Made by a program: the position numbers and the translations under genes. From the NCBI GenBank assembly GCA_017459985.1, contig JAFUBX010000011.1:124001-188000 (forward strand): DNA of 64,000 bases. Reading direction: 5' to 3'. This document shows, piece by piece, positions 12,257-24,401 of the stretch; position 1 is the first letter of the stretch; each line of letters begins with the position of its first letter. Source of the stretch: Parasporobacterium sp. GTDB lineage: Bacteria; Bacillota; Clostridia; Lachnospirales; Lachnospiraceae. The notes beneath the pieces were generated by a model. That model saw nothing but the letters and a program-made list of their open reading frames with translations, made no database searches and was not told where the DNA came from.

Positions 12257-14746
12257 TTATTTCTTTTCTCCACTTAATCCCAGTTTTTCTATTGCTTCCT
12301 CACGCATTTTATATTTCAGTATTTTTCCGGCTGCATTCATCGGGAATGCGTCAACAAATCCGATATATCTGGGAACCTTGTGTCTTGCCAGGGATGCTGC
12401 GATAAAGTCATGCATCTCTTTTTCGGTACAGGTTTCGCCTTCCTTTAAGATAATGCAGGCCATGGCCTCTTCACCGTATTTTTCGTCCGGAACTCCGATC
12501 ACCTGCACATCCTGTACCTTAGGATTGGTGTAGATGAACTCTTCGATTTCCTTCGGATAAAGATTCTCGCCGCCCCGGATGATCATATCCTTCAGGCGTC
12601 CGGTAATACGGAAAGTTCCGTCCTCGTTCATGCAGGCCAGATCCCCGGAATGAAGCCAGCCCTCATCATCTATTGTTTCACGGGTGGCGTCCGGCATCTT
12701 GTAATAACCCTTCATCTGGTTGTAACCTTTGGCACAGAATTCGCCGTTTACGCCCGGAGGAAGTGTTTCTCCGGTTTCCGGGTCTACCACCTTGCACAGC
12801 ACATGGGGGAATGCATAACCCACTGTTTCCGTGCGGACCTCAAGGGAATCTGTCCATGCAGACATCGTGTTTCCGGGAGCTGTCTCGGTCTGACCGTAAA
12901 CACTCACAATCCCTGTCATGTTCATTTCGTCCGGGCGGGCAGCCCTTCTCATAAGCTCCGGCGGACATCCGCTTCCCGCCATGATCCCTGTTCTCATATA
13001 AGAAAAGTCAGTCCTGCGGTAATCCGGATGGTTAAACATAGCGATAAACATGGTCGGTACGCCATTAAAGGCTGTGATCCGCTCCTGATTTATGCAGGCC
13101 AGAGATGATTTTGCCGAAAAATACGGCATCGGACAAATGGTAGCTCCATGGGTAATAGATGATGTCATCGAGAGCGTCATCCCGAAACAGTGGAACATGG
13201 GAACATGAATCATAAAGCGGTCTGCGGTGGAAAGTCCCATTCGGTCTCCTATGCACTTGCCGTTATTCACCACATTGTAATGAGTCAGCATCACGCCCTT
13301 TGGAAAACCCGTGGTTCCGGAAGTATACTGCATATTACAGACATCATTGGGCTTTACCCTGGCTGCCAGACGGTATATTTCCTCTGCCGGAACCAGATCT
13401 GCTCTCTCAAGGGCTTCCTCAAATGTCAGGCATCCCGGCATTTTAAAATCCACTGTGATCACATTTCTCAGGAATGGGAGTTTCCTGCAGTGCAGAGGTT
13501 CGCCGGGCTTATTCCCTGCGATCTCGGGGCACAGATCATTGATTATCTCCCTGTAATTGGAATCCAGCTGATTCTCTATCATCACGAGGGTATGGGTGTC
13601 GGACTGTCTTAAAAGATACTCTGCCTCATGGGTCTTGTATGCAGTGTTCACCGTTACCAGTACCGCACCGAGCTTAACCGTTGCCCAGAAAGTAATGTAC
13701 CAGGCCGGTACATTTGTAGCCCAGATAGCCACCTTGCTTCCGGCGGTTACACCCATGGAGACCAGGGCTCTGGCGAAATTGTCAACATCATCCCGGAACT
13801 CAGAATAAGTCCTGGTGTAATCTAAAGTCGTATATTTAAATGCATACTGATCAGGAAACTCCTCCACCACCCGGTCCAGGACCTGTGAAAAGGTCATATT
13901 CAATAGTTCATCTTTCTTCCAGATATACTCGCCCGTCCCATCGTGATTTGGATAAAGAGCTTTCTTCTGGGTCCTGGTATCGTCAAAATGACGCATATAG
14001 TTGATAAAATAGGGCATGATGATGCTCAGATCATCGAAATCCGGGAGCCACTGGCTCTTCCACTCCATGGAGATCATGCCGTCATAATTGATGGAAGAAA
14101 GCGCCCGCATCATATCGTCTATCGGGAGAGTCCCCTCACCGATCAGATTATAACTCTTGTCATCATTGGAATCTCTCAGATGCACATGTTTTACATAAGC
14201 GCCAAGATTCTTTATGGTTGTATCCGCACTCTCACCAAAATCCCTGTAGGGATGATGCATATCCCAGGAAGCTCCCAGCTCATCCGAGGCGAAACTTTCC
14301 ATCAGGTCGCGCAGGCGCTTTGTGTCTGCGTAGATCCCGGTTGTTTCCATAAGGACCACCACGCCGCGCTCTGCTGCCGCCGGGAGCAGGATATCAAGTC
14401 TTTCCCGGATCCGTTCCTCATTATCCGTAAGAGCGATACAAACCACATAGGGTACCTTCAGATTTTTCGCGATATCCATCTGATCAATGAGGATCTGTGT
14501 GAAATCTTCGGCTACACTGATATCGCAGGCAGTATCTATGCAGGGGATCTCGATATGCTTTTCCTTCAGTTCCCTGACAGTCGCAGCCGCATTGTATTTA
14601 TGGAACAGTCCCCCGCGTCCGGTGAGTTCCGGATGTTTGTAAAGATTATAGAATTCTACGCCGTCGTACTCGGCATCGATGGCAGCATCTATAAATACAT
14701 TCGGGTCCACATCTTCCCATCCCCGGGTTAAAAATGAAAATCTCAT
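12257..14746 (-). CDS. Fusion: TIM-barrel sugar isomerase/epimerase-like domain plus acyl-CoA ligase
   Basis: An 829-residue two-domain protein. Residues 1-255 form an AP-endonuclease-2/sugar-phosphate isomerase type TIM barrel. Its likely metal ligands are Glu134 (LMETTG), Asp162/His164-165 (SWDMHH), His187/His189 (KHVHLRDS) and Glu228 (SMEWK). Residues 285-829 form an ANL-superfamily ligase with YTSGTTGFPKG (474-484), YGQTETAP, GWLHSGDLA, GRLKDMIIRGGENLYPKEIEE and the C-terminal catalytic Lys in NAAGKILKYKM. The ligase half should activate a carboxylate with ATP and CoA; it most resembles medium/long-chain and short branched acyl-CoA synthetases. The start overlaps the LeuA-like stop by 4 bp, and PFOR follows. 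The substrate and the reason for the fusion are unknown. Confidence 0.85.
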   Translation of the reverse strand: MRFSFLTRGWEDVDPNVFIDAAIDAEYDGVEFYNLYKHPELTGRGGLFHKYNAAATVRELKEKHIEIPCIDTACDISVAEDFTQILIDQMDIAKNLKVPYVVCIALTDNEERIRERLDILLPAAAERGVVVLMETTGIYADTKRLRDLMESFASDELGASWDMHHPYRDFGESADTTIKNLGAYVKHVHLRDSNDDKSYNLIGEGTLPIDDMMRALSSINYDGMISMEWKSQWLPDFDDLSIIMPYFINYMRHFDDTRTQKKALYPNHDGTGEYIWKKDELLNMTFSQVLDRVVEEFPDQYAFKYTTLDYTRTYSEFRDDVDNFARALVSMGVTAGSKVAIWATNVPAWYITFWATVKLGAVLVTVNTAYKTHEAEYLLRQSDTHTLVMIENQLDSNYREIINDLCPEIAGNKPGEPLHCRKLPFLRNVITVDFKMPGCLTFEEALERADLVPAEEIYRLAARVKPNDVCNMQYTSGTTGFPKGVMLTHYNVVNNGKCIGDRMGLSTADRFMIHVPMFHCFGMTLSMTSSITHGATICPMPYFSAKSSLACINQERITAFNGVPTMFIAMFNHPDYRRTDFSYMRTGIMAGSGCPPELMRRAARPDEMNMTGIVSVYGQTETAPGNTMSAWTDSLEVRTETVGYAFPHVLCKVVDPETGETLPPGVNGEFCAKGYNQMKGYYKMPDATRETIDDEGWLHSGDLACMNEDGTFRITGRLKDMIIRGGENLYPKEIEEFIYTNPKVQDVQVIGVPDEKYGEEAMACIILKEGETCTEKEMHDFIAASLARHKVPRYIGFVDAFPMNAAGKILKYKMREEAIEKLGLSGEKK

Positions 14747-16161
14747 ACCTCAGCCTCCTCATATACAATCTTGTTGAGCGCATTCACATAGGCTCTTATA
14801 CTCGAGCCTATGATATCTGTGGAGATACCCCTGCCGGGATAGATCTTTCCATTTGAGATAAGCCTGACCACCGTCTCGCCCACAGCCTCCTGGCCTTCTG
14901 TCACGGATCTGACCTGAAAATCATCCAGCTCGTAGTGACAGCCTACGATTTTTTCTATGGCAAGAAAAGCGGCATCTACAGGACCGTCTCCTATCACTAC
15001 GCTCTCCATTTGTTCACCGTCCTTTGTCAAGGTAATATGGGCGGTGGAACCGATGGTATTTCCATGATTGATCACATATTTCTCAAGCGTATAGGTAGCC
15101 GGCACCTGCATGGCGACGGAAGCGACTATGACATCCAGTTCTCTGCTGCTGATGGAATCTTTTTTCGCTACAATACGTTCAAAAGCCTCCCAGACAAGCT
15201 GTCCGTCCTCATCGCTTAAGTCATAACCCAGCTTCTTAACGGCTGCAAGCACAGCCTGCATATTGTCCGAAGAGGAAAGCAGCATGCTGTCCTCCTCGTC
15301 ATTTACACCGTTTTCAAATGGTGTTGTCTTGCTCTTCTCCGTATTACAGAGCCAGTTGATCTGCCTGATTACCCTGCCCAGTTCTACTGTGCGCACAGGG
15401 CAGCTGATCCCAAGTGTTCCTCCTTTTGCAGAGAGGATCCTTGCCATATCAGCATATGATGCAATGTCCCCGATACACGCGGTCGTTTTGATCTCCCTTG
15501 CGCCCTTACTTACAGCAACTACAGCACAGGCGTTTGCTACAGAAAGACCGTTTGAGCATGAAACTCCCAGCGTCACATCTTTCAGGGACGGAATATTCGC
15601 ATACAGTTTATCCAGAAAAGAATGGAATTCCACCGGGAGCATGGTGCCCGCAGTATCACACACGGTGATCGTGGAAGCTCCGGCATCGATGGCCGCGCTT
15701 ATCATATCATAAAGAAACTCCTCGTCTGCTCTGGTGGCATCATCCGCGATAAATTCCACATCCGCAGTGTACCTGCGGCAGCTTTCTATTGTATCCGTGA
15801 TAAGCACTTTCATATCGGGAGCTTTTTTATGATACAGATACTCCATCTGCACAGTACTCACCGGAGCCGGAACCTGAAGTCTGGGATGTTTCGCGCCTTT
15901 TAAGGCGTTCCAGACATTATCCACAGACTCTTCGCTGAAATCCACCGGAACCGCCACAACGCTGTCCTTTGTATTTCCCGCGACTGACTTGATCAAAAGG
16001 GAATCCACCTTCACATTTTCCATTGGTTCCATCTCTATAACAGAGGTTCCCAGCCTGTCAAGGAGCCTGGCCAGTTCCAGTTTATTTTTAAAAGAAAGCT
16101 TTCCCATTCCTGTTTTTTTGTGCATCGTCATTGAAGCATCGCTTATCTTTACAATACTCAT
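14743..16161 (-). CDS. LeuA-like (HMGL family) protein with degenerate metal site
   Basis: A 472-residue protein with the layout of 2-isopropylmalate synthase: an N-terminal HMGL-like TIM barrel (about 1-270) and a C-terminal LeuA regulatory/dimer domain (about 360-465, including STAHITLTKDG and YPGRGISTDIIGSSIRAYVNALNKI). The catalytic signature is missing. Where LeuA has TLRDGEQ the protein reads SMTMHKK, so the Arg-Asp pair becomes Thr12-Met13. Where LeuA has HCHND it reads SCSNG at 201-205, losing both His ligands. It therefore probably does not catalyse a normal metal-dependent aldol condensation. It sits between ilvE and the ligase fusion, preceded by a T-box remnant and an AAAGGAGATC site. 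It may be a leucine-sensing or scaffold protein, or an enzyme with altered chemistry. Confidence 0.8.
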   Translation of the reverse strand: MSIVKISDASMTMHKKTGMGKLSFKNKLELARLLDRLGTSVIEMEPMENVKVDSLLIKSVAGNTKDSVVAVPVDFSEESVDNVWNALKGAKHPRLQVPAPVSTVQMEYLYHKKAPDMKVLITDTIESCRRYTADVEFIADDATRADEEFLYDMISAAIDAGASTITVCDTAGTMLPVEFHSFLDKLYANIPSLKDVTLGVSCSNGLSVANACAVVAVSKGAREIKTTACIGDIASYADMARILSAKGGTLGISCPVRTVELGRVIRQINWLCNTEKSKTTPFENGVNDEEDSMLLSSSDNMQAVLAAVKKLGYDLSDEDGQLVWEAFERIVAKKDSISSRELDVIVASVAMQVPATYTLEKYVINHGNTIGSTAHITLTKDGEQMESVVIGDGPVDAAFLAIEKIVGCHYELDDFQVRSVTEGQEAVGETVVRLISNGKIYPGRGISTDIIGSSIRAYVNALNKIVYEEAEV

Positions 16162-16290: not shown

Positions 16291-17352
16291 TCAGATTTTC
16301 ACTCTCCAGCCGTACTTATCTTCCAGTTTTCCCAGCTGGATGCCTGTCACCGTCTCATACAGCCTGTGACTGATTTCTCCTGTGTTGCCGTCACCGATCG
16401 TCATGACATCATCCTTATACCTGAGTTTTCCCACAGGAGAGATGACAGCTGCGGTGCCTGTACCAAAGACTTCCTCCAGTTTTCCGTTCCGCTGAGCTTC
16501 AAGCAGTTCGTCAACACTGATCTTACGCTCTTCTACTTCAAATCCCCAGTCCTTACAAATCCTGATTACAGAGTCCCTGGTAATCCCCGGCAGGATACTT
16601 CCGTTCAGCATAGGTGTCACGATTTTTCCATCTATTTTGAAGAAAATATTCATGGATCCGACTTCTTCTATGTATTTGCGTTCTACTCCATCCAGCCACA
16701 AAACCTGTGCATATCCATCATCGTGAGCCTTTTCCTGACCTATGAGGCTGGCTGCATAGTTTCCGCCGGTTTTTGCAAATCCCATTCCGCCTCTTACTGC
16801 CCTGACATAATCATCTTCGATCCAGATTCCCACAGGATCCAGACCGCTCTCATAATATGCTCCGCTGGGGGAAAGGATTATCATGAAAAGGTAAGTTTTT
16901 GAAACAGCAACACCCAGGAAATCATCCGTTGCGATGATAAAAGGTCGGATATAAAGCGATGTCCCAGGCTCCGTCGGAATCCAGTCTGCATCCACGGAAA
17001 CCAGAGTGGTTACAGCCTGTACAAAATCTTCCTCAGGTATCTGCGGAATACACAGTCTCTTGTTGGTAACATTTGTCCTTTTGGCATTCATATCCGGCCG
17101 GAAACAGTAGTTATTTCCGTCTGCTCCTCTGTATGCCTTGAGTCCCTCAAACATTTCCTGGGCATAATGGAATACCATGGTAGCAGGAGACAGGGAAAGA
17201 TTGTGAAATGGCTCTATTCTGGGGTCAAACCATCCTTTTCCCTCTTCATAATTCATGATAAACATATGATCTGTAAAGATTTTTCCAAATCCAAGCTTTC
17301 CTGACGGCTTCTCTTTGGGATTTTCCGTTTTTGTGATCCTGATATCCAGCAT
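16291..17352 (-). CDS. ilvE: Branched-chain amino acid aminotransferase
   Basis: PLP enzyme of fold type IV that catalyses the last step of Val, Leu and Ile synthesis and their reversible transamination. The 353-residue length is full. Family marks include FHYAQEMFEGLKAYRG, RPDMNAKR, GGNYAASL, the region around VLWLDGVERKYIEEVGSMN (catalytic Lys in the ERKYIEE motif) and FGTGTAAVISPVG. The ATG has an AGGAGG site 6 bases upstream. It is the fifth ilv gene of the run, 51 bp after ilvD. The stop codon is immediately followed by a T-box remnant. Confidence 0.96.
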   Translation of the reverse strand: MLDIRITKTENPKEKPSGKLGFGKIFTDHMFIMNYEEGKGWFDPRIEPFHNLSLSPATMVFHYAQEMFEGLKAYRGADGNNYCFRPDMNAKRTNVTNKRLCIPQIPEEDFVQAVTTLVSVDADWIPTEPGTSLYIRPFIIATDDFLGVAVSKTYLFMIILSPSGAYYESGLDPVGIWIEDDYVRAVRGGMGFAKTGGNYAASLIGQEKAHDDGYAQVLWLDGVERKYIEEVGSMNIFFKIDGKIVTPMLNGSILPGITRDSVIRICKDWGFEVEERKISVDELLEAQRNGKLEEVFGTGTAAVISPVGKLRYKDDVMTIGDGNTGEISHRLYETVTGIQLGKLEDKYGWRVKI

Positions 17353-17403: not shown

Positions 17404-19065
17404 TCAGGCAAGCACAGCACCCTTATCCGCTGATGTCACCAGCTTTGCATATCTGGCTGCGTATCCAGTCTTGATCTTTGGTTCCGGCTCTGTCCATTTG
17501 GCTCTTCTGGCTGCAAGTTCTTCATCGGAAACTTTCATTTCCAGCTTGCAGTTCGGGATATCGATGGAAATAATATCGCCTTCCTGTACCAGAGCGATAT
17601 TGCCGCCGGATGCTGCTTCAGGGCTTACATGGCCGATCGCAGCGCCGCGGGTAGCGCCGGAGAATCGTCCGTCTGTGATCAGGGCAACGCTGGATCCCAG
17701 GCCCATGCCCACGATGGCGGAAGTCGGATTGAGCATTTCTCTCATTCCCGGGCCGCCTTTCGGTCCTTCATAACGGATAATGACCACATCACCCGGATTG
17801 ATCTTCTTGTTGTAGATGGCGCTGATGGCGTCTTCCTCGGAATCAAAGACTCTGGCAGGGCCTTCGTGCACCATCATCTCAGCTGCCACTGCAGACTGCT
17901 TGACGACGCTGCCGTCCGGAGCCAGGTTGCCCTTCAGAACAGCGATACCGCCGCTCTGAGAGAAAGGATTGTCGATAGAGCGGATGACTTCCGGATTGAT
18001 GTTCTGTACATTTGCCAGATTTTCCCCCATTGTCCTGCCGGTAACGGTCATAACATTCAGGTTCAGGAGATCTTTTTTGGTCAGTTCTTTCATGACAGCG
18101 TAAACGCCGCCGGCCAGATCCAGGTCTTCCATAAAGGTGTCTCCTGCAGGTGCCAGATGGCACAGGTTCGGAGTCCGTGCGCTGATCTCATTGGACTTGT
18201 CCAGGCTGATGGTAAGTCCGGTCTCATGAGCGATGGCCGGAAGATGCAGCATGGTGTTAGTGGAACAGCCCAGAGCCATATCTACGGTCTCCGCATTATC
18301 AAATGCTTCCGGTGTCATGATATCTCTCGGCTTAATGTCTTTCTCGACCAGCTTCATGATCTGCATGCCGGCTTCCTTGGCCAGACGCAGTCTTGCGGAA
18401 TAGGGCGCCGGTATGGTGCCGTTGCCCGGAAGAGCCATACCGATGGCTTCACACAGGCAGTTCATGGAGTTGGCGGTATACATACCGGAGCAGGAGCCGC
18501 AGGACGGGCATGCATTCTTTGTGTATTCATCAACTCCGGCTTCATCCAGCGTTCCTGCATGGAAAGCGCCGACTGCTTCAAACATATGACTCAGACAGGT
18601 ACGTCTTCCGTCTTTCAGATGGCCGGCCAGCATCGGACCTCCGCTGCAGAAGATCGTCGGAATATTCAGTCTGGCGGCTGCCATCAGAAGACCCGGAACG
18701 TTCTTGTCGCAGTTCGGGATCATGACCAGACCGTCAAACTGATGCGCGATTACCATTGCCTCTGTGGAATCCGCGATCAGATCTCTGGTAACCAGTGAAT
18801 ACTTCATTCCGACATGTCCCATGGCAATGCCGTCGCACACCGCGATGGCCGGGAACATGATCGGCGTTCCACCTGCCAGTCTTACACCGGCCTTAACAGC
18901 TTCGGTGATCTTGTCCAGATGCATATGGCCCGGAACAATCTCATTGTGAGAACTGACTACACCGATCAGCGGGCGGCTGATCTCCTCATCCGTCAGACCC
19001 AGTGCGTACATCAAGCTCTTATTCGGTGTTCTCTCGACACCTTTTTTCGCATTATCTGATATCAT
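17404..19065 (-). CDS. ilvD: Dihydroxy-acid dehydratase
   Basis: Iron-sulfur dehydratase that converts dihydroxyisovalerate and its isoleucine-pathway homologue to the 2-oxoacids. The 553 residues carry the cluster cysteines in NCDKNVPG and in the [18 protein letters not shown] segment, and the active-site region [20 protein letters not shown] choose the ATG at 19065 ([17 protein letters not shown]), which has an AAAGGA site 8 bases upstream. The frame extends further to 19107, but that N-terminal extension is not typical. It lies between ilvC (71 bp upstream) and ilvE. Confidence 0.95.
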
Positions 19066-19135
19066 AAAATGTCCTTTCATGGTGCGGAAGCAATGATTTT
19101 TATCCATCTGCTTCCAATCATTACCTGCCAGTCAA

Positions 19136-20687
<1,552 letters not shown>

Positions 20688-20699
20688 ATCCCTGCCTCC

Positions 20700-22406
20700 T
20701 TAACTGATAATGAAATCTGTGATATGGCTTCCGCCGCCTACCATCGGACGGACCATCTCATCTGTATCGATCATGCAGTCCACCACATACCCCTTCTTCC
20801 ATTCCCGGGCTTCCGTAATGGCAGCTTCCAGTTCCTCCACAGTAGAGACACGCTTGCCCTTGAGGCCATAGGCATCCGCCAGCTTGACGAAGTCCGGTCC
20901 TCTGTCCAGGGTTGTCTGGGAATAATGCTTGTCATAGATCAGGGTCTGCCACTGGCGGACCATGCCCAAAGTCCTGTTGTTGAAGATAAATGTGATGACA
21001 GGAAGACCGTAATGTTCTTCCGTAGCCAGTTCATTGCAGTTCATACGGAAGCTGCCGTCACCGGTAATATGAATGACAGCCTTGTCGGGATTCCCCACCT
21101 GGGCACCAATGGCTGCGCCAAGGCCGAAGCCCATGGTGCCGAAGCCGCCGGAGGTCAGGAGCTGTCCTTCATAATCGAAGTGGAAATGCTGGATTGCCCA
21201 CATCTGATGCTGACCGACATCGGTAGAAACGATGGTATCGTCCGGCATCATCTGAGCGATCGTAGAGAGAACCTGTTTCGGAGTCAGCTTATCACCGCCC
21301 TCATCATATTCAGCCTCTCTGGGATAGGAAAAGACATATTCCTTCCATGCCTTATGATCGCACTGTTCCATCCGCCCGATCAGGATCTCCATCACCTGCC
21401 TGGCATCGCCGACAATATGATGATCTGTCTTGACATTCTTGTTGATCTCGGCCCGGTCGATATCGATCTGGACGATCTGGGCCTGTTTGGCAAAGGATGC
21501 CGGATTCAGGGCAACCCGGTCAGAGAAGCGGCAGCCGATGGCGATCAGGAGATCACAGCCGTCGCAGGCCATATTGGAAGCCTGGGAGCCGTGCATACCG
21601 ATCATTCCGGTGGTCAGGGGATTCCGTCCGTTCATCCCGCCGGCGCCCATGACCGTCAGCGCAACCGGAGCATCCAGTTTCTCGGCAAACGCCGTCAGCT
21701 GATCCTGTGAACGGCTGCGGACCACACCGCCGCCGCAGATGATCAGAGGTTTTTCGGAATTGCGAATCATATCCAGAAGAATGTCAATATCATTATCATC
21801 CACCTTCGGAGGTTCAAACCGGAACATGGACTTTCTGACCAGCTGGGCAATTCGTCCCGAAGTATAATGTTCCGCCTTCGGAAGGGGAACATATTCCGCC
21901 TTTTCCGCCGTGGCATTCTTAAGGAAGTCGATCAGCACCGGCCCCGGGCGCCCTGATCTGGCAATCGCAAATGCTTCCCTGACCACATCCGCGATCTGCT
22001 CCGCATGCTTCACCAGATAATTGTTCTTGGTGATCGGCATGGCGATCCCGGTAATATCGACCTCCTGGAAGGAATCCTTTCCGATCAGCGTCTCTCCCAC
22101 ATTGCAGGTAATAAAGACGACCGGCGAAGAATCCATATAGGCGGTTGCAATTCCCGTAATCAGGTTGGTCGCTCCCGGTCCTGAGGTTGCAAAGCAGACC
22201 CCGACCTTGCCCGTGCTTCTGGCATAGCCGTCCGCAGCGTGGGCAGCTCCCTGTTCATGAGACGTCAGGATATGTCGGAATGTATCCTGATAATCATACA
22301 GGGCATCGTACACGTTCAGGATCGTACCTCCCGGATAGCCGAATATGGTATCCACTTCCTGTTCCCGCAGACATTCCAGTAAAATCTGTGCTCCTGTAAG
22401 CTGCAT
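20700..22406 (-). CDS. ilvB: Acetolactate synthase catalytic (large) subunit
   Basis: Thiamine-diphosphate enzyme that condenses two pyruvates, or pyruvate with 2-oxobutyrate, in the first common step of Val/Leu/Ile synthesis. From the ATG at 22406 (MQLTGAQILLECLREQ) there are 568 residues. The catalytic Glu (TSHEQGAAHAADGYAR), the FAD/oxyanion region and the thiamine motif GDGSFRMNCNELATEEHYGLPVITFIFNN are present. A CAGGAGGAAATAAC site fixes this start; an in-frame extension to 22472 runs into leader RNA. It is first in the operon, downstream of a leader-peptide attenuator. Confidence 0.95.
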   Translation of the reverse strand: MQLTGAQILLECLREQEVDTIFGYPGGTILNVYDALYDYQDTFRHILTSHEQGAAHAADGYARSTGKVGVCFATSGPGATNLITGIATAYMDSSPVVFITCNVGETLIGKDSFQEVDITGIAMPITKNNYLVKHAEQIADVVREAFAIARSGRPGPVLIDFLKNATAEKAEYVPLPKAEHYTSGRIAQLVRKSMFRFEPPKVDDNDIDILLDMIRNSEKPLIICGGGVVRSRSQDQLTAFAEKLDAPVALTVMGAGGMNGRNPLTTGMIGMHGSQASNMACDGCDLLIAIGCRFSDRVALNPASFAKQAQIVQIDIDRAEINKNVKTDHHIVGDARQVMEILIGRMEQCDHKAWKEYVFSYPREAEYDEGGDKLTPKQVLSTIAQMMPDDTIVSTDVGQHQMWAIQHFHFDYEGQLLTSGGFGTMGFGLGAAIGAQVGNPDKAVIHITGDGSFRMNCNELATEEHYGLPVITFIFNNRTLGMVRQWQTLIYDKHYSQTTLDRGPDFVKLADAYGLKGKRVSTVEELEAAITEAREWKKGYVVDCMIDTDEMVRPMVGGGSHITDFIIS

Positions 22407-22501: not shown

Positions 22502-22539
22502 AAAAAAATCCTACGGCTAAAAGATTTACCGTAGGATTT
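22502..22539 (-). terminator. Attenuator terminator upstream of ilvB
   Basis: On the minus strand an 11-bp perfect hairpin (AAATCCTACGG / CCGTAGGATTT, arms 22539-22529 and 22516-22506) with a 12-base loop ends in a T7 run (22508-22502). It lies 30 bp after the leader peptide stop and about 100 bp before ilvB, the standard geometry for transcription attenuation. Confidence 0.92.
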
Positions 22540-22569
22540 ACAATCTAAGATTCGTACGTCTTTGTGTAA

Positions 22570-22665
22570 TCAGGTATCACTTTTAGCACTAGCTGAATTC
22601 TGCTTACGCAGGACCAGGATAGCGCTGACCAGCAATATAACGAGAACTGCACAATTACGTATCAT
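22570..22665 (-). CDS. ilv leader peptide (31 residues)
   Basis: A 31-codon reading frame starting MIRNCAVLVILLVSAILVL and ending in SDT, then TGA. Twelve of 31 residues are Val, Leu or Ile, eleven of them in a 13-residue block. A GAGGTG ribosome site lies 6-7 bases before the ATG, and the promoter start point is about 25 bases further upstream. A strong intrinsic terminator follows the stop by 30 bases, before ilvB. This fits a leader peptide: stalling at scarce branched-chain tRNAs would change RNA folding and permit readthrough into ilvB. I did not fold the RNA; the antiterminator is only weakly suggested by eye. Confidence 0.85.
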   Translation of the reverse strand: MIRNCAVLVILLVSAILVLRKQNSASAKSDT

Positions 22666-22692
22666 AAATAACACCTCAAAATTTGGTTGTTT

Positions 22693-22724
22693 AGTGTTAT
22701 ATCACTTTACCATAGCAGTGTCAA
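22693..22724 (-). promoter_or_regulatory. ilv operon promoter with a palindrome over the -10 box
   Basis: A perfect -35 TTGACA (22724-22719), a 17-bp spacer and -10 TATAAC (22701-22696) on the minus strand. The 14-bp sequence AGTGTTATATCACT (22693-22706) is symmetrical at 12 of 14 positions and covers the -10 box, so a repressor site is possible. Confidence 0.82.
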
Positions 22725-22784: not shown

Positions 22785-24356
22785 TCAGAAAAGTCCCAGA
22801 GCGGATCCGGTGTACGGGCCTACGATGCCGTCCACGTACAATCCGCTTGCTTCCTGATACAGAAGAACCGCATTATAGGTCATATCTCCGAAATAGCCAT
22901 CCAGCGGGCCCGGATTGAATCCGGCTGCTGCCAGTGCGTTCTGCAGGGCAAGGACTCCGTCTCCTGTCATGCCGTAGACCAGATCAGCGGCTGCCTGCGG
23001 TGCGGCGGGTGCTTCCGGGGCCGGCTCTTCCGGAGCGGCTGCCGGAGCCTCTTCCGGTGCGGCTTCAGAAACTGCGCTGCCGTTCAGGGCTGCCATGGTA
23101 TAGGGCCCAACAATGCCATCCACGAGAAGTCCTTTGTCTGTCTGGAACTGAAGCACTGCATTGTAGGTCATATCTCCGAAATAGCCGTCCAGCGGGCCCG
23201 GATTGAATCCGGCTGCTGCCAGGGCGCTCTGCAGGGCAAGGACTCCGTCTCCCGTCATGCCGTACACCAGATCTCCCGACTCTGCGGACGGTGCCGGCGC
23301 AGGTTCCGGTTCTTCCGCCGGTGCAGGTTCGGAAACTTCTTCTGTATTTTCCGGTGCCGGAGCGTTCAGAAGCGCATCCACTGTCTGCGCGTCAAGGATC
23401 CCGTTATCCGCAAGACCGTGATCTTTCTGGAACTGGCTGAGGGCATTCTTCGTCATATCGCCGAAATATCCGTCGATCTCTCCAACCTCATAGCCCAGGG
23501 AGCTCAGAGTGCTCTGCAGAATCATAACTTCGTCAGCGGAACTGCCGTATACGGCATTGGCCGGCAGGGATTCCCTGGCCCATTTCTGATAGGACAGCTC
23601 ATTGACAGCCTGATTGGTCACAGGACCTGCCACGCCGTCCACGTAAAGGCCGTGATCCTGCTGGAACGCGACCACTGCTTCATAGGTGGAATCCCCGAAA
23701 TACCCCTGTGCATCGGTAATCGTATATCCGGCATCCTGAAGTCCCGACTGGAGGAAGAATACCTCAAGGCATTCCATCCCTTTGACCAGTTCTGTGGCAC
23801 CGGAGGCTTCCGGAAGAGCCGGCGGATTCTGGGTCTCCACGATATTGCCCTCTTCATCCAGCATGCTGGCCGGAACAAAGGTATGGGTTCCGTCTTCATT
23901 TTCCACTCTGACGATCTCCACAAAGTCAATTCCGTGTTCCTGCGCATAGGTCTGCGCATAGGAATCCGCGTATCCCTGGATCTGAAGATGGGCAGGAAGA
24001 TTTCCCTGGGCATTAACAAACGCCGTGTCTGAGATCGCCGTTACGCTTTTTCCGATCAGGATATTCTGAAGGTCTGCCACCGGAGTGAACAGATAGTTTC
24101 CCAGATACGTAATGTTCTCATTAATAAACGCAAAAGTTGCATCTGCCCTGACTGGCGAAACATTGCCCGTAGGAGAATAATCATAGGTCGCTCCCTCTCC
24201 ATAGAGATTGATCATCTCCTCCTCATGAACAAATACATTCTCCCCCACTCTGGTCGGCTCTTCCTGAACTTCCTCTGCAAACACTGCGCCGGTTCCCAGG
24301 ATGCCCGTCACCATCATTGCAGCGATAAGGACTGCTGCGATTTTTTTGATTTTCAT
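22785..24356 (-). CDS. Secreted protein with four peptidoglycan-binding domains
   Basis: A 523-residue exported protein. Residues 1-28 are a signal peptide with a probable cut after VFA. Residues about 70-150 resemble the end of a BspA-like leucine-rich repeat (LQIQGYADSYAQTYAQEHGIDFVEI). Four PG_binding_1 domains follow at about 190-252, 268-330, 362-425 and 458-520, each with the GYFGDxT core. The last two are separated by Pro/Ala/Glu-rich linkers and are nearly identical in DNA. No catalytic domain is seen, so it probably sits in or on the cell wall. The start at 24356 has an AGGAGG site. It has its own promoter. Confidence 0.85.
   Translation of the reverse strand: MKIKKIAAVLIAAMMVTGILGTGAVFAEEVQEEPTRVGENVFVHEEEMINLYGEGATYDYSPTGNVSPVRADATFAFINENITYLGNYLFTPVADLQNILIGKSVTAISDTAFVNAQGNLPAHLQIQGYADSYAQTYAQEHGIDFVEIVRVENEDGTHTFVPASMLDEEGNIVETQNPPALPEASGATELVKGMECLEVFFLQSGLQDAGYTITDAQGYFGDSTYEAVVAFQQDHGLYVDGVAGPVTNQAVNELSYQKWARESLPANAVYGSSADEVMILQSTLSSLGYEVGEIDGYFGDMTKNALSQFQKDHGLADNGILDAQTVDALLNAPAPENTEEVSEPAPAEEPEPAPAPSAESGDLVYGMTGDGVLALQSALAAAGFNPGPLDGYFGDMTYNAVLQFQTDKGLLVDGIVGPYTMAALNGSAVSEAAPEEAPAAAPEEPAPEAPAAPQAAADLVYGMTGDGVLALQNALAAAGFNPGPLDGYFGDMTYNAVLLYQEASGLYVDGIVGPYTGSALGLF
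22876..23273 (-). repeat. Duplicated 110-bp peptidoglycan-binding module
   Basis: Positions 22876-22985 and 23164-23273 match at 105 of 110 bases by direct reading, at an offset of 288 bp (96 codons). They encode the cores of domains 3 and 4 of the peptidoglycan-binding protein. This is far closer than the similarity to domains 1 and 2, so it is a recent internal duplication or gene conversion. Confidence 0.88.
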
Positions 24357-24401
24357 TTTTTCCTCCTGAAACAATAACTGAAAAACAATATAGCGTTACT
24401 T

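Follow-up and report, generated by a model that had tools for sequence, protein, structure and literature searches.

A predicted ribosome-mediated transcription attenuator in front of the ilvBNCDE operon in a Parasporobacterium genome and its ilvB relatives

Introduction

In Escherichia coli the leaders of ilvBN and ilvGMEDA work by the classical four-segment mechanism of attenuation, in which the 5' arm of the terminator takes part in the antiterminator. In Firmicutes, control of branched-chain amino acid genes is usually attributed to T-boxes and CodY. In this study we analysed the region upstream of ilvB in the window, by which we mean the whole 64,000-nucleotide stretch of a Parasporobacterium sp. 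contig, where the original prediction had placed a leader-peptide attenuator. The mechanism we propose for it would be the same four-segment one as in the E. coli leaders, which differ in that their antiterminator is built on the terminator 5' arm. With the ilv T-box leaders of Firmicutes the locus shares the gene and the output, premature termination, but those leaders sense tRNA directly.

We compare the locus here with the closest described systems. In Listeria monocytogenes, ribosome-mediated attenuation of ilv-leu by Rli60 was shown with start-codon, RBS and terminator mutants (PMC5864092). Like our locus, Rli60 has a leader peptide rich in branched-chain amino acids, an RBS, an antiterminator and a terminator in front of a branched-chain operon of a Firmicute; unlike it, ilvD is the first gene, the peptide has 13 amino acids and the operon is also under CodY, whereas in the window ilvB is first, the peptide has 31 amino acids and no CodY was found. 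In the description of Rli60, segments 2 and 3 make up the antiterminator (PMC5864092), whereas in the window most antiterminator pairs fall in the terminator loop. For ilvD of Staphylococcus aureus, a leucine-rich attenuator peptide is supported by suppressor mutations in the peptide and the terminator, and such leaders were also predicted in Lactococcus and Streptococcus (PMC5794164). The S. aureus system resembles the window in having a leader frame, there of 26 amino acids with Ile and Leu codons and with the terminator 52 nt past the stop, but the antiterminator proposed there binds the poly-U tail and leaves the stem-loop of the terminator in place, and CodY is present (PMC5794164). The ilvB-II motif of Corynebacterium ilvBNC shares with the window a uORF rich in branched-chain codons, a terminator and covarying structure before ilvB; it belongs to Actinobacteria, however, and the loop of a stem further upstream, P1, pairs there with part of the right shoulder of the terminator (PMC10272879). 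By their descriptions, the ilvB-OMG motif (PMC10272879) and the Leptospira ilvB motif (PMC8632094) likewise have a uORF rich in these codons before ilvB. Neither they nor ilvB-II or similar ilv motifs gave a match at the leader up to E 10 in Rfam 15, which may lack some of them. Replacement of T-boxes by leader peptides in Firmicutes has been noted at hisS (PMC2965389), and we found no report of an ilv leader-peptide attenuator in Clostridia in a literature whose coverage was thin on subscription journals.

Results

Organization of the leader and the operon

The predicted series of promoter, Shine-Dalgarno (SD) site, 31-codon frame, stop, 30-nt spacer, 11-bp hairpin, T7 tract and ilvB was recovered element by element when we re-read the minus strand (Table 1). 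The -10 box is preceded by TG at 22704-22703, which makes it an extended -10. The terminator hairpin occupies 22539-22506 and the T7 tract 22508-22502, the hairpin has a computed energy of -16.7 kcal/mol, and the ilvB start codon at 22406 lies 95 nt beyond. A simple consensus scan listed neither the promoter nor the terminator, because it demands a T at position 6 of the -10 box and a loop of at most 8 nt. A GAGGT SD was located by script in the window and in the related loci L032, L033 and L034, which also carry the I/L/V core of the leader peptide. As in ribosome-mediated attenuators, a short SD-preceded frame rich in the product amino acids is found between the promoter and a terminator, and this intrinsic terminator stands ahead of the first structural gene. 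The leader peptide itself has no family in NCBIfam or Pfam. Judging from its strand and a gap of 129 nt, the leuA-like gene is possibly the last gene of the operon.

Table 1. Positions of the leader elements and genes in the window
Feature	Position	Strand	Description
Predicted promoter	22696..22724	-	TTGACA 22724-22719, 17-nt spacer, TATAAC 22701-22696; read directly
Shine-Dalgarno GAGGTG of leader frame	22672..22677	-	6 nt 5' of ATG 22665; read directly
Leader peptide frame MIRNCAVLVILLVSAILVLRKQNSASAKSDT	22570..22665 (incl. stop)	-	31 aa, 12 I/L/V codons; ATG 22665, TGA 22572-22570
Segment 1 (predicted)	22619..22638	-	Codons Ile10 to Ile16; would pair with segment 2 as protector hairpin in the ribosome-free state
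Segment 2, antiterminator 5' side GCUAAAAGUGAUACC	22573..22587	-	Codons Ala27-Thr31; from swap tests and column counts
Intrinsic terminator	22502..22539	-	Stem AAATCCTACGG / CCGTAGGATTT, 11 bp, 12-nt loop, T7; read and computed
Antiterminator 3' side GGUAAAUCUUUUAGC	22516..22530	-	Inner end of terminator 5' arm, loop and first base of 3' arm
ilvB, acetolactate synthase large subunit	20700..22406	-	NCBIfam TIGR00118, 688 bits, over cut-off; predicted first regulated gene
ilvN, acetolactate synthase small subunit	20136..20687	-	TIGR00119 / NF008864, over cut-off
ilvC, ketol-acid reductoisomerase	19136..20155	-	TIGR00465, over cut-off
ilvD, dihydroxy-acid dehydratase	17404..19107	-	TIGR00110, over cut-off
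ilvE, branched-chain aminotransferase	16291..17352	-	TIGR01123, over cut-off
leuA-like gene (2-isopropylmalate-synthase-like)	14743..16161	-	Best NCBIfam match 282 bits, below the family cut-off of 532

The leader frame recurs upstream of ilvB in relatives

When the 420-nt upstream region of the window was shuffled with its dinucleotides preserved, 17 of 2000 shuffles gave a frame preceded by an SD in which I/L/V codons numbered at least 12 and made up at least 38%. With a chance of about 1% the frame alone is only suggestive, and it is the comparison with relatives that makes it secure. This comparison covered 81 loci, namely 80 named ones (the best 80 of the 305 ilvB-like relatives found) with the window locus L002 and L003 added and L074 left out, the latter having just 159 bases upstream of ilvB. 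Under fixed criteria (SD, 15-60 amino acids, I/L/V at least 9 and 30%), an I/L/V-rich leader frame was present upstream of ilvB in 43 of the 81 loci and was followed by a terminator in 39, while 100 shuffled sets of the loci gave a mean of 3.2 frames and a maximum of 8. The same frame criteria found a frame in 7/81 loci on the antisense strand and in 4/79 in the region further upstream. Looser criteria, set after looking, added L036, L040, L041, L042, L061 and L094, so that the set grew to 49 of 81; within it, terminators missed by the scan were added in L052, L062, L103 and L105. The loci with the leader include two from named strains, Evtepia gabavorous KLE1738 (L066) and Clostridium viride DSM 6836 (L094), the leader of the latter having been included by eye.

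By these criteria three loci had a T-box motif and 29 had neither a leader nor a T-box. We looked by eye at 22 of the 29 (21 and L003), and ilvB is probably not the first gene in several of them, because another frame ends just 5' of it. Five loci (L065, L081, L086, L089 and L110) looked by eye like leaders poor in I/L/V. The frames of the last four read V-R-L or similar, with CGA-type Arg codons, and in some of them GUACGACUU or GUGCGACUU looks complementary to the segment 2 sequence AAGUUGUGC; these codons may therefore be kept for RNA pairing.

The expectation that the small frame would be conserved in relatives is thus borne out by its recurrence, and the expected bias towards synonymous change is visible as well. 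Of the 11 codons compared by eye between the window and L034 (7-13 and 16-19), six are different; four of these changes are synonymous and two stay within I/L/V. On this comparison the I/L/V core of the leader is kept as protein.

Locus-by-locus match of antiterminator and terminator

GCUAAAAGUGAUACC, the stretch formed by the last codons of the frame, is complementary to GGUAAAUCUUUUAGC. The resulting antiterminator shares bases with the terminator, and nine of its 12 pairs lie in the terminator loop of the window. A knot holding both structures at once we judge sterically unlikely. Folding of the whole leader gave the terminator together with hairpins that run through the frame, and the leader fold was moderately unusual (z -2.97).

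We examined the pairing with tests that need no alignment. In the 49 loci, the uncut region from codon 21 to the terminator was allowed its best duplex with its own 22-nt terminator core, and the cores were then redealt among loci. The mean energy was -15.67 kcal/mol with the own core compared to -13.16 (sd 0.36) with redealt ones, and none of 20000 permutations was as low; in six loci (L067, L085, L094, L100, L105 and L111) the majority of foreign cores fitted as well as the own one. When the test was limited to 24 representatives with ilvB identities below 85% and the core to 18 nt, the values were -14.88 and -10.89 (sd 0.47; 0/20000), and the longest Watson-Crick run averaged 7.38 for own and 5.48 for swapped cores (0/20000). 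Segments 1 and 2 were also matched to each other across the 49 loci, at -16.06 for own and -14.52 (sd 0.39) for swapped partners, with 5 of 20000 permutations as good.

Column counts in alignments gave a more mixed picture. A MAFFT alignment of 24 leaders, hand-picked from the 49 and cut at the predicted duplex, had 84.4% of antiterminator cells paired (78.7 when shuffled; best slid version 68.1%) and both partners had changed in eight of the 12 pairs (3.4 when shuffled, 0/500; best slid 7), and the 25 leaders outside it include most of the loci that do badly in the 49-locus swap and nascent-folding tests. Pair 25/147 of the antiterminator is unsupported, being unpaired in 19 of these 24 leaders. 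The terminator in the same alignment had 91.7% of cells paired and 10 of 11 pairs changed on both sides (shuffled 6.8; 5/500). When all 49 loci were used (48 distinct leaders, uncut), the antiterminator count was diluted, because MAFFT aligns the terminator loops poorly and places them visibly out of register: 64.7% of cells were paired (shuffled 60.9, 0/500; best slid 57.9), the covariation score was 0.254 against 0.190 when shuffled (0/500; best slid 0.189), and the eight pairs with double changes were no excess over the shuffled 7.6 (277/500). The terminator on all 49 had 89.0% of cells paired and a covariation score of 0.539 compared to 0.320 (0/500). By covariation, then, the terminator is secure, and for the antiterminator it is the alignment-free swap tests that carry the weight. 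The prediction had also called for mutually exclusive folds; an antiterminator that excludes the terminator, kept by compensatory change, was what the swap tests on 49 and 24 loci pointed to, and the column counts spoke for it clearly on the 24 hand-picked leaders and with a mixed, weaker outcome on all 49.

Could an ordinary terminator simply stand behind a fortuitous frame? The window shuffles that gave so rich a frame and the modest z of the leader fold speak for chance, but the 43 of 81 relatives and the swap tests make this explanation exceedingly improbable.

Within the genus the two strands can be followed base by base. Segment 2 reads CUAAAAG in the window, with CUUUUAG in the loop, and L032 has CUAAAAAG and CUUUUUAG; in L034 the two are GCUUAAA and UUUAAGC. 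An extra A in segment 2 of L032 and L033 is matched by an extra T in the loop despite the frameshift it causes, and through this insertion their peptide ends at 29 residues instead of the 31 of the window. Within the genus the RNA pairing is kept and the tail of the peptide is not.

This also bears on whether the frame might code for a genuine small membrane protein, with the hairpin a mere terminator between it and ilvB. Such a protein would account for the hydrophobicity of the peptides, 45 of 49 of which have a 19-residue stretch with a mean Kyte-Doolittle hydropathy of at least 1.6, the level of a membrane helix. It would not account for a C-terminal part that follows the RNA pairing in the genus, for the frameshifting insertion of L032 with its counterpart in the loop or for the locus-by-locus match of segment 2 to the terminator. 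Moreover, segment 2 begins right after the stop in L092 and 7 nt after it in L096, and I/L/V outnumber F/M/W/A/G by 2.2 to 1. We therefore consider a membrane protein very unlikely and an attenuator peptide the better reading of the frame.

Predicted folding of the nascent transcript depends on the position of the ribosome

We folded window transcripts that end at the terminator loop, with the footprint of a ribosome blocked, and calculated the probability of the antiterminator (8 bp). It was 0.006 without a ribosome, 0.000 with the ribosome at the stop codon, 0.003 at V7 and 0.000 at N23, and it rose to 0.950 at I10, 0.644 at V13, 0.781 at I16, 0.963 at V18 and 0.939 at L19. With three more bases past the loop the probability was 0.11-0.59 for stalls from I10 to L19, and with six it was below 0.01. 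Covering of the antiterminator strand by a ribosome at the stop codon, and its release by a stalled one, was thus seen in nascent-RNA folding only. In the full-length leader at equilibrium the position of the ribosome made no such difference: the terminator won at every position tried, and control would therefore be kinetic, the antiterminator having to form first.

Across the 49 loci we scored the best duplex that the program found; in some of the failing loci this duplex differs from the conserved segment. The probability averaged 0.14 in the ribosome-free state and 0.42 over the stall codons; it averaged 0.67 when the best stall codon was taken and 0.05 with the ribosome at the stop. The mean over stalls exceeded the stop value in 47/49 loci and the ribosome-free value in 44/49. 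A probability of 0.5 was reached at some stall codon in 36 loci and not in the other 13; in six (L044, L049, L053, L056, L082 and L087) it stayed below 0.05 at every stall. A ribosome at the stop codon left 0.21-0.70 in L103, L088, L035, L036 and L111, the five of 49 loci with at least 0.1 at this position.

T-boxes, CodY and other known RNAs

No T-box (RF00230) was matched at the leader by Rfam, either at gathering or up to E 10. Other known RNAs were rejected as well: none reached gathering, and of four matches up to E 10 none was a T-box or a riboswitch. Is it possible that a ligand- or protein-sensing RNA, such as a T-box, a ppGpp or amino-acid riboswitch or one as yet unknown, controls the terminator and that the frame is incidental? 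Riboswitches likewise look like leaders with two exclusive structures, and a T-box does precede ilvB in L047 (positions 2163-2412, by Rfam) and, by motif and below gathering, in L048 and L051. Against this stand the lack of an Rfam family at the leader and the course of the large fold 5' of the terminator, which runs through the frame itself, and we give a sensing RNA of this kind very little credence beside a leader read by ribosomes.

The window's genome (94.75% complete) gave no match to CodY (PF06018) at E 0.001, and CodY was found in two of 14 control genomes. Three T-box matches occur in the same genome, none of them reaching gathering and all on other contigs (L112, L113 and L114 on C92, C41 and C93 of G000); the frames beside them look, by reading, like tryptophan synthase beta and anthranilate phosphoribosyltransferase. 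Since T-box-like leaders occur elsewhere in this genome, the choice of RNA sensor is made per operon. Two of the three matches lie in stretches of C41 and C93 that give the same frames, and this shared stretch is perhaps an assembly duplicate.

Distribution and ilvB phylogeny

An RNA model, R1, was built from the 24-leader alignment. It had a single match in the window's genome, where 150 of 345 candidates were scored, and this match lay at ilvB. In the genus, 11 of 14 genomes had a match, the window's own among them. Ten matched genus loci were returned; in a quick scan eight had an I/L/V-rich frame and two, L182 and L187, did not. Over the class R1 matched six of 391 genomes, again with the window's included, under stricter filters and nine first-look candidates per genome, which make absence weak evidence. 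The five other class matches were marginal (E 2e-4 to 1e-3), showed no convincing leader on a quick look and were treated as chance. In a class sample, 73 genomes had an ilvB-like match and provided 58 upstream regions, six with an SD-preceded I/L/V-rich frame and four with a T-box motif. Two of the six frames, those of L136 and L159, look convincing and have a terminator; their leaders possibly had independent origins. The original prediction had called this kind of control uncommon for the lineage. That is only partly right: ribosome-mediated ilv attenuation has been demonstrated in Listeria and has support in S. aureus, both Bacilli, and although little of it turned up in the class sample, such leaders are common in the ilvB clade around the window.

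The nearest named ilvB relatives belong to Parasporobacterium sp. MAGs (94%), a genus that NCBI places in Lachnospiraceae. Of the ilvB genes listed for 100 genomes of this family, the best apart from that of the window was 69% identical (G065, in which no leader was found) and the next 56%, while loci labelled Oscillospiraceae, Clostridia or Christensenella have ilvB 74-78% identical to the window's. This pattern of distances suggests that operon and attenuator were transferred together horizontally, or that the paralogy is old.

We built a quick tree of 87 ilvB proteins, on which 12 changes suffice for the leader label (50 rows), compared to 27.7 when shuffled (0/500); at least five changes are required by well-supported branches. 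We also observed that some ilvB relatives carry a T-box where others carry a leader peptide. L047, L048 and L051, the loci with a T-box, fall together on one branch; the group around it, which has weak support, also contains four loci without a leader and four with one. Leader peptide and T-box seem to have been exchanged, in one direction or the other, as RNA sensors at one gene.

Discussion

The recurrence of the frame in relatives, together with the exclusive antiterminator matched locus by locus, upholds the original reading, and the ilvBNCDE operon of the window is very probably controlled by a ribosome-mediated transcription attenuator. The frame, the terminator, the bases it shares with the antiterminator and the locus-by-locus match of the latter can be read from the sequences and their comparison; that the leader is translated, that ribosomes stall on it, that they respond to the amino acids and that the timing suffices, we infer. 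In the model that we propose, RNA polymerase would start at the promoter and a ribosome would begin the 31-codon frame. With charged Ile, Leu and Val tRNAs, it would reach the stop codon and cover segment 2, upon which the hairpin would close and transcription would end at the T7 tract. When these tRNAs are scarce, the ribosome would stall on codons 7-19, which would break segment 1 and leave segment 2 free. Segment 2 would then pair with the loop and inner stem of the nascent terminator while the 3' arm is still to be transcribed. This would keep the terminator from closing, and the operon would be transcribed. In the absence of a ribosome, segment 1 would hold segment 2, and termination would be the default.

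We regard the window attenuator as a well-supported addition to a known mechanism, and our surprise is moderate, because this mechanism is already established in Bacilli. Its loop-capturing antiterminator may be a variant of known attenuators. Could it also mark a distinct Clostridial family? In such a family the last leader codons would capture the loop and inner stem of the terminator, in a purely kinetic way; it would be old in an ilvB clade common to several families of Clostridia, with an exchange between it and a T-box in one branch (L047, L048 and L051), in lineages without detected CodY such as the window's. We put this forward tentatively, with a confidence that falls somewhat short of even. 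A set of gut and rumen Clostridia, most of them uncultured, appears to rely on a ribosome-sensing attenuator for its branched-chain amino acid genes, and with ilvB relatives that have a T-box instead, the exchange of RNA sensors may be traceable at a single gene. Lastly, the gene directly upstream of the leader in the window (22785-24374), on the same strand, is a 529-amino-acid frame with four peptidoglycan-binding repeats (PF01471).
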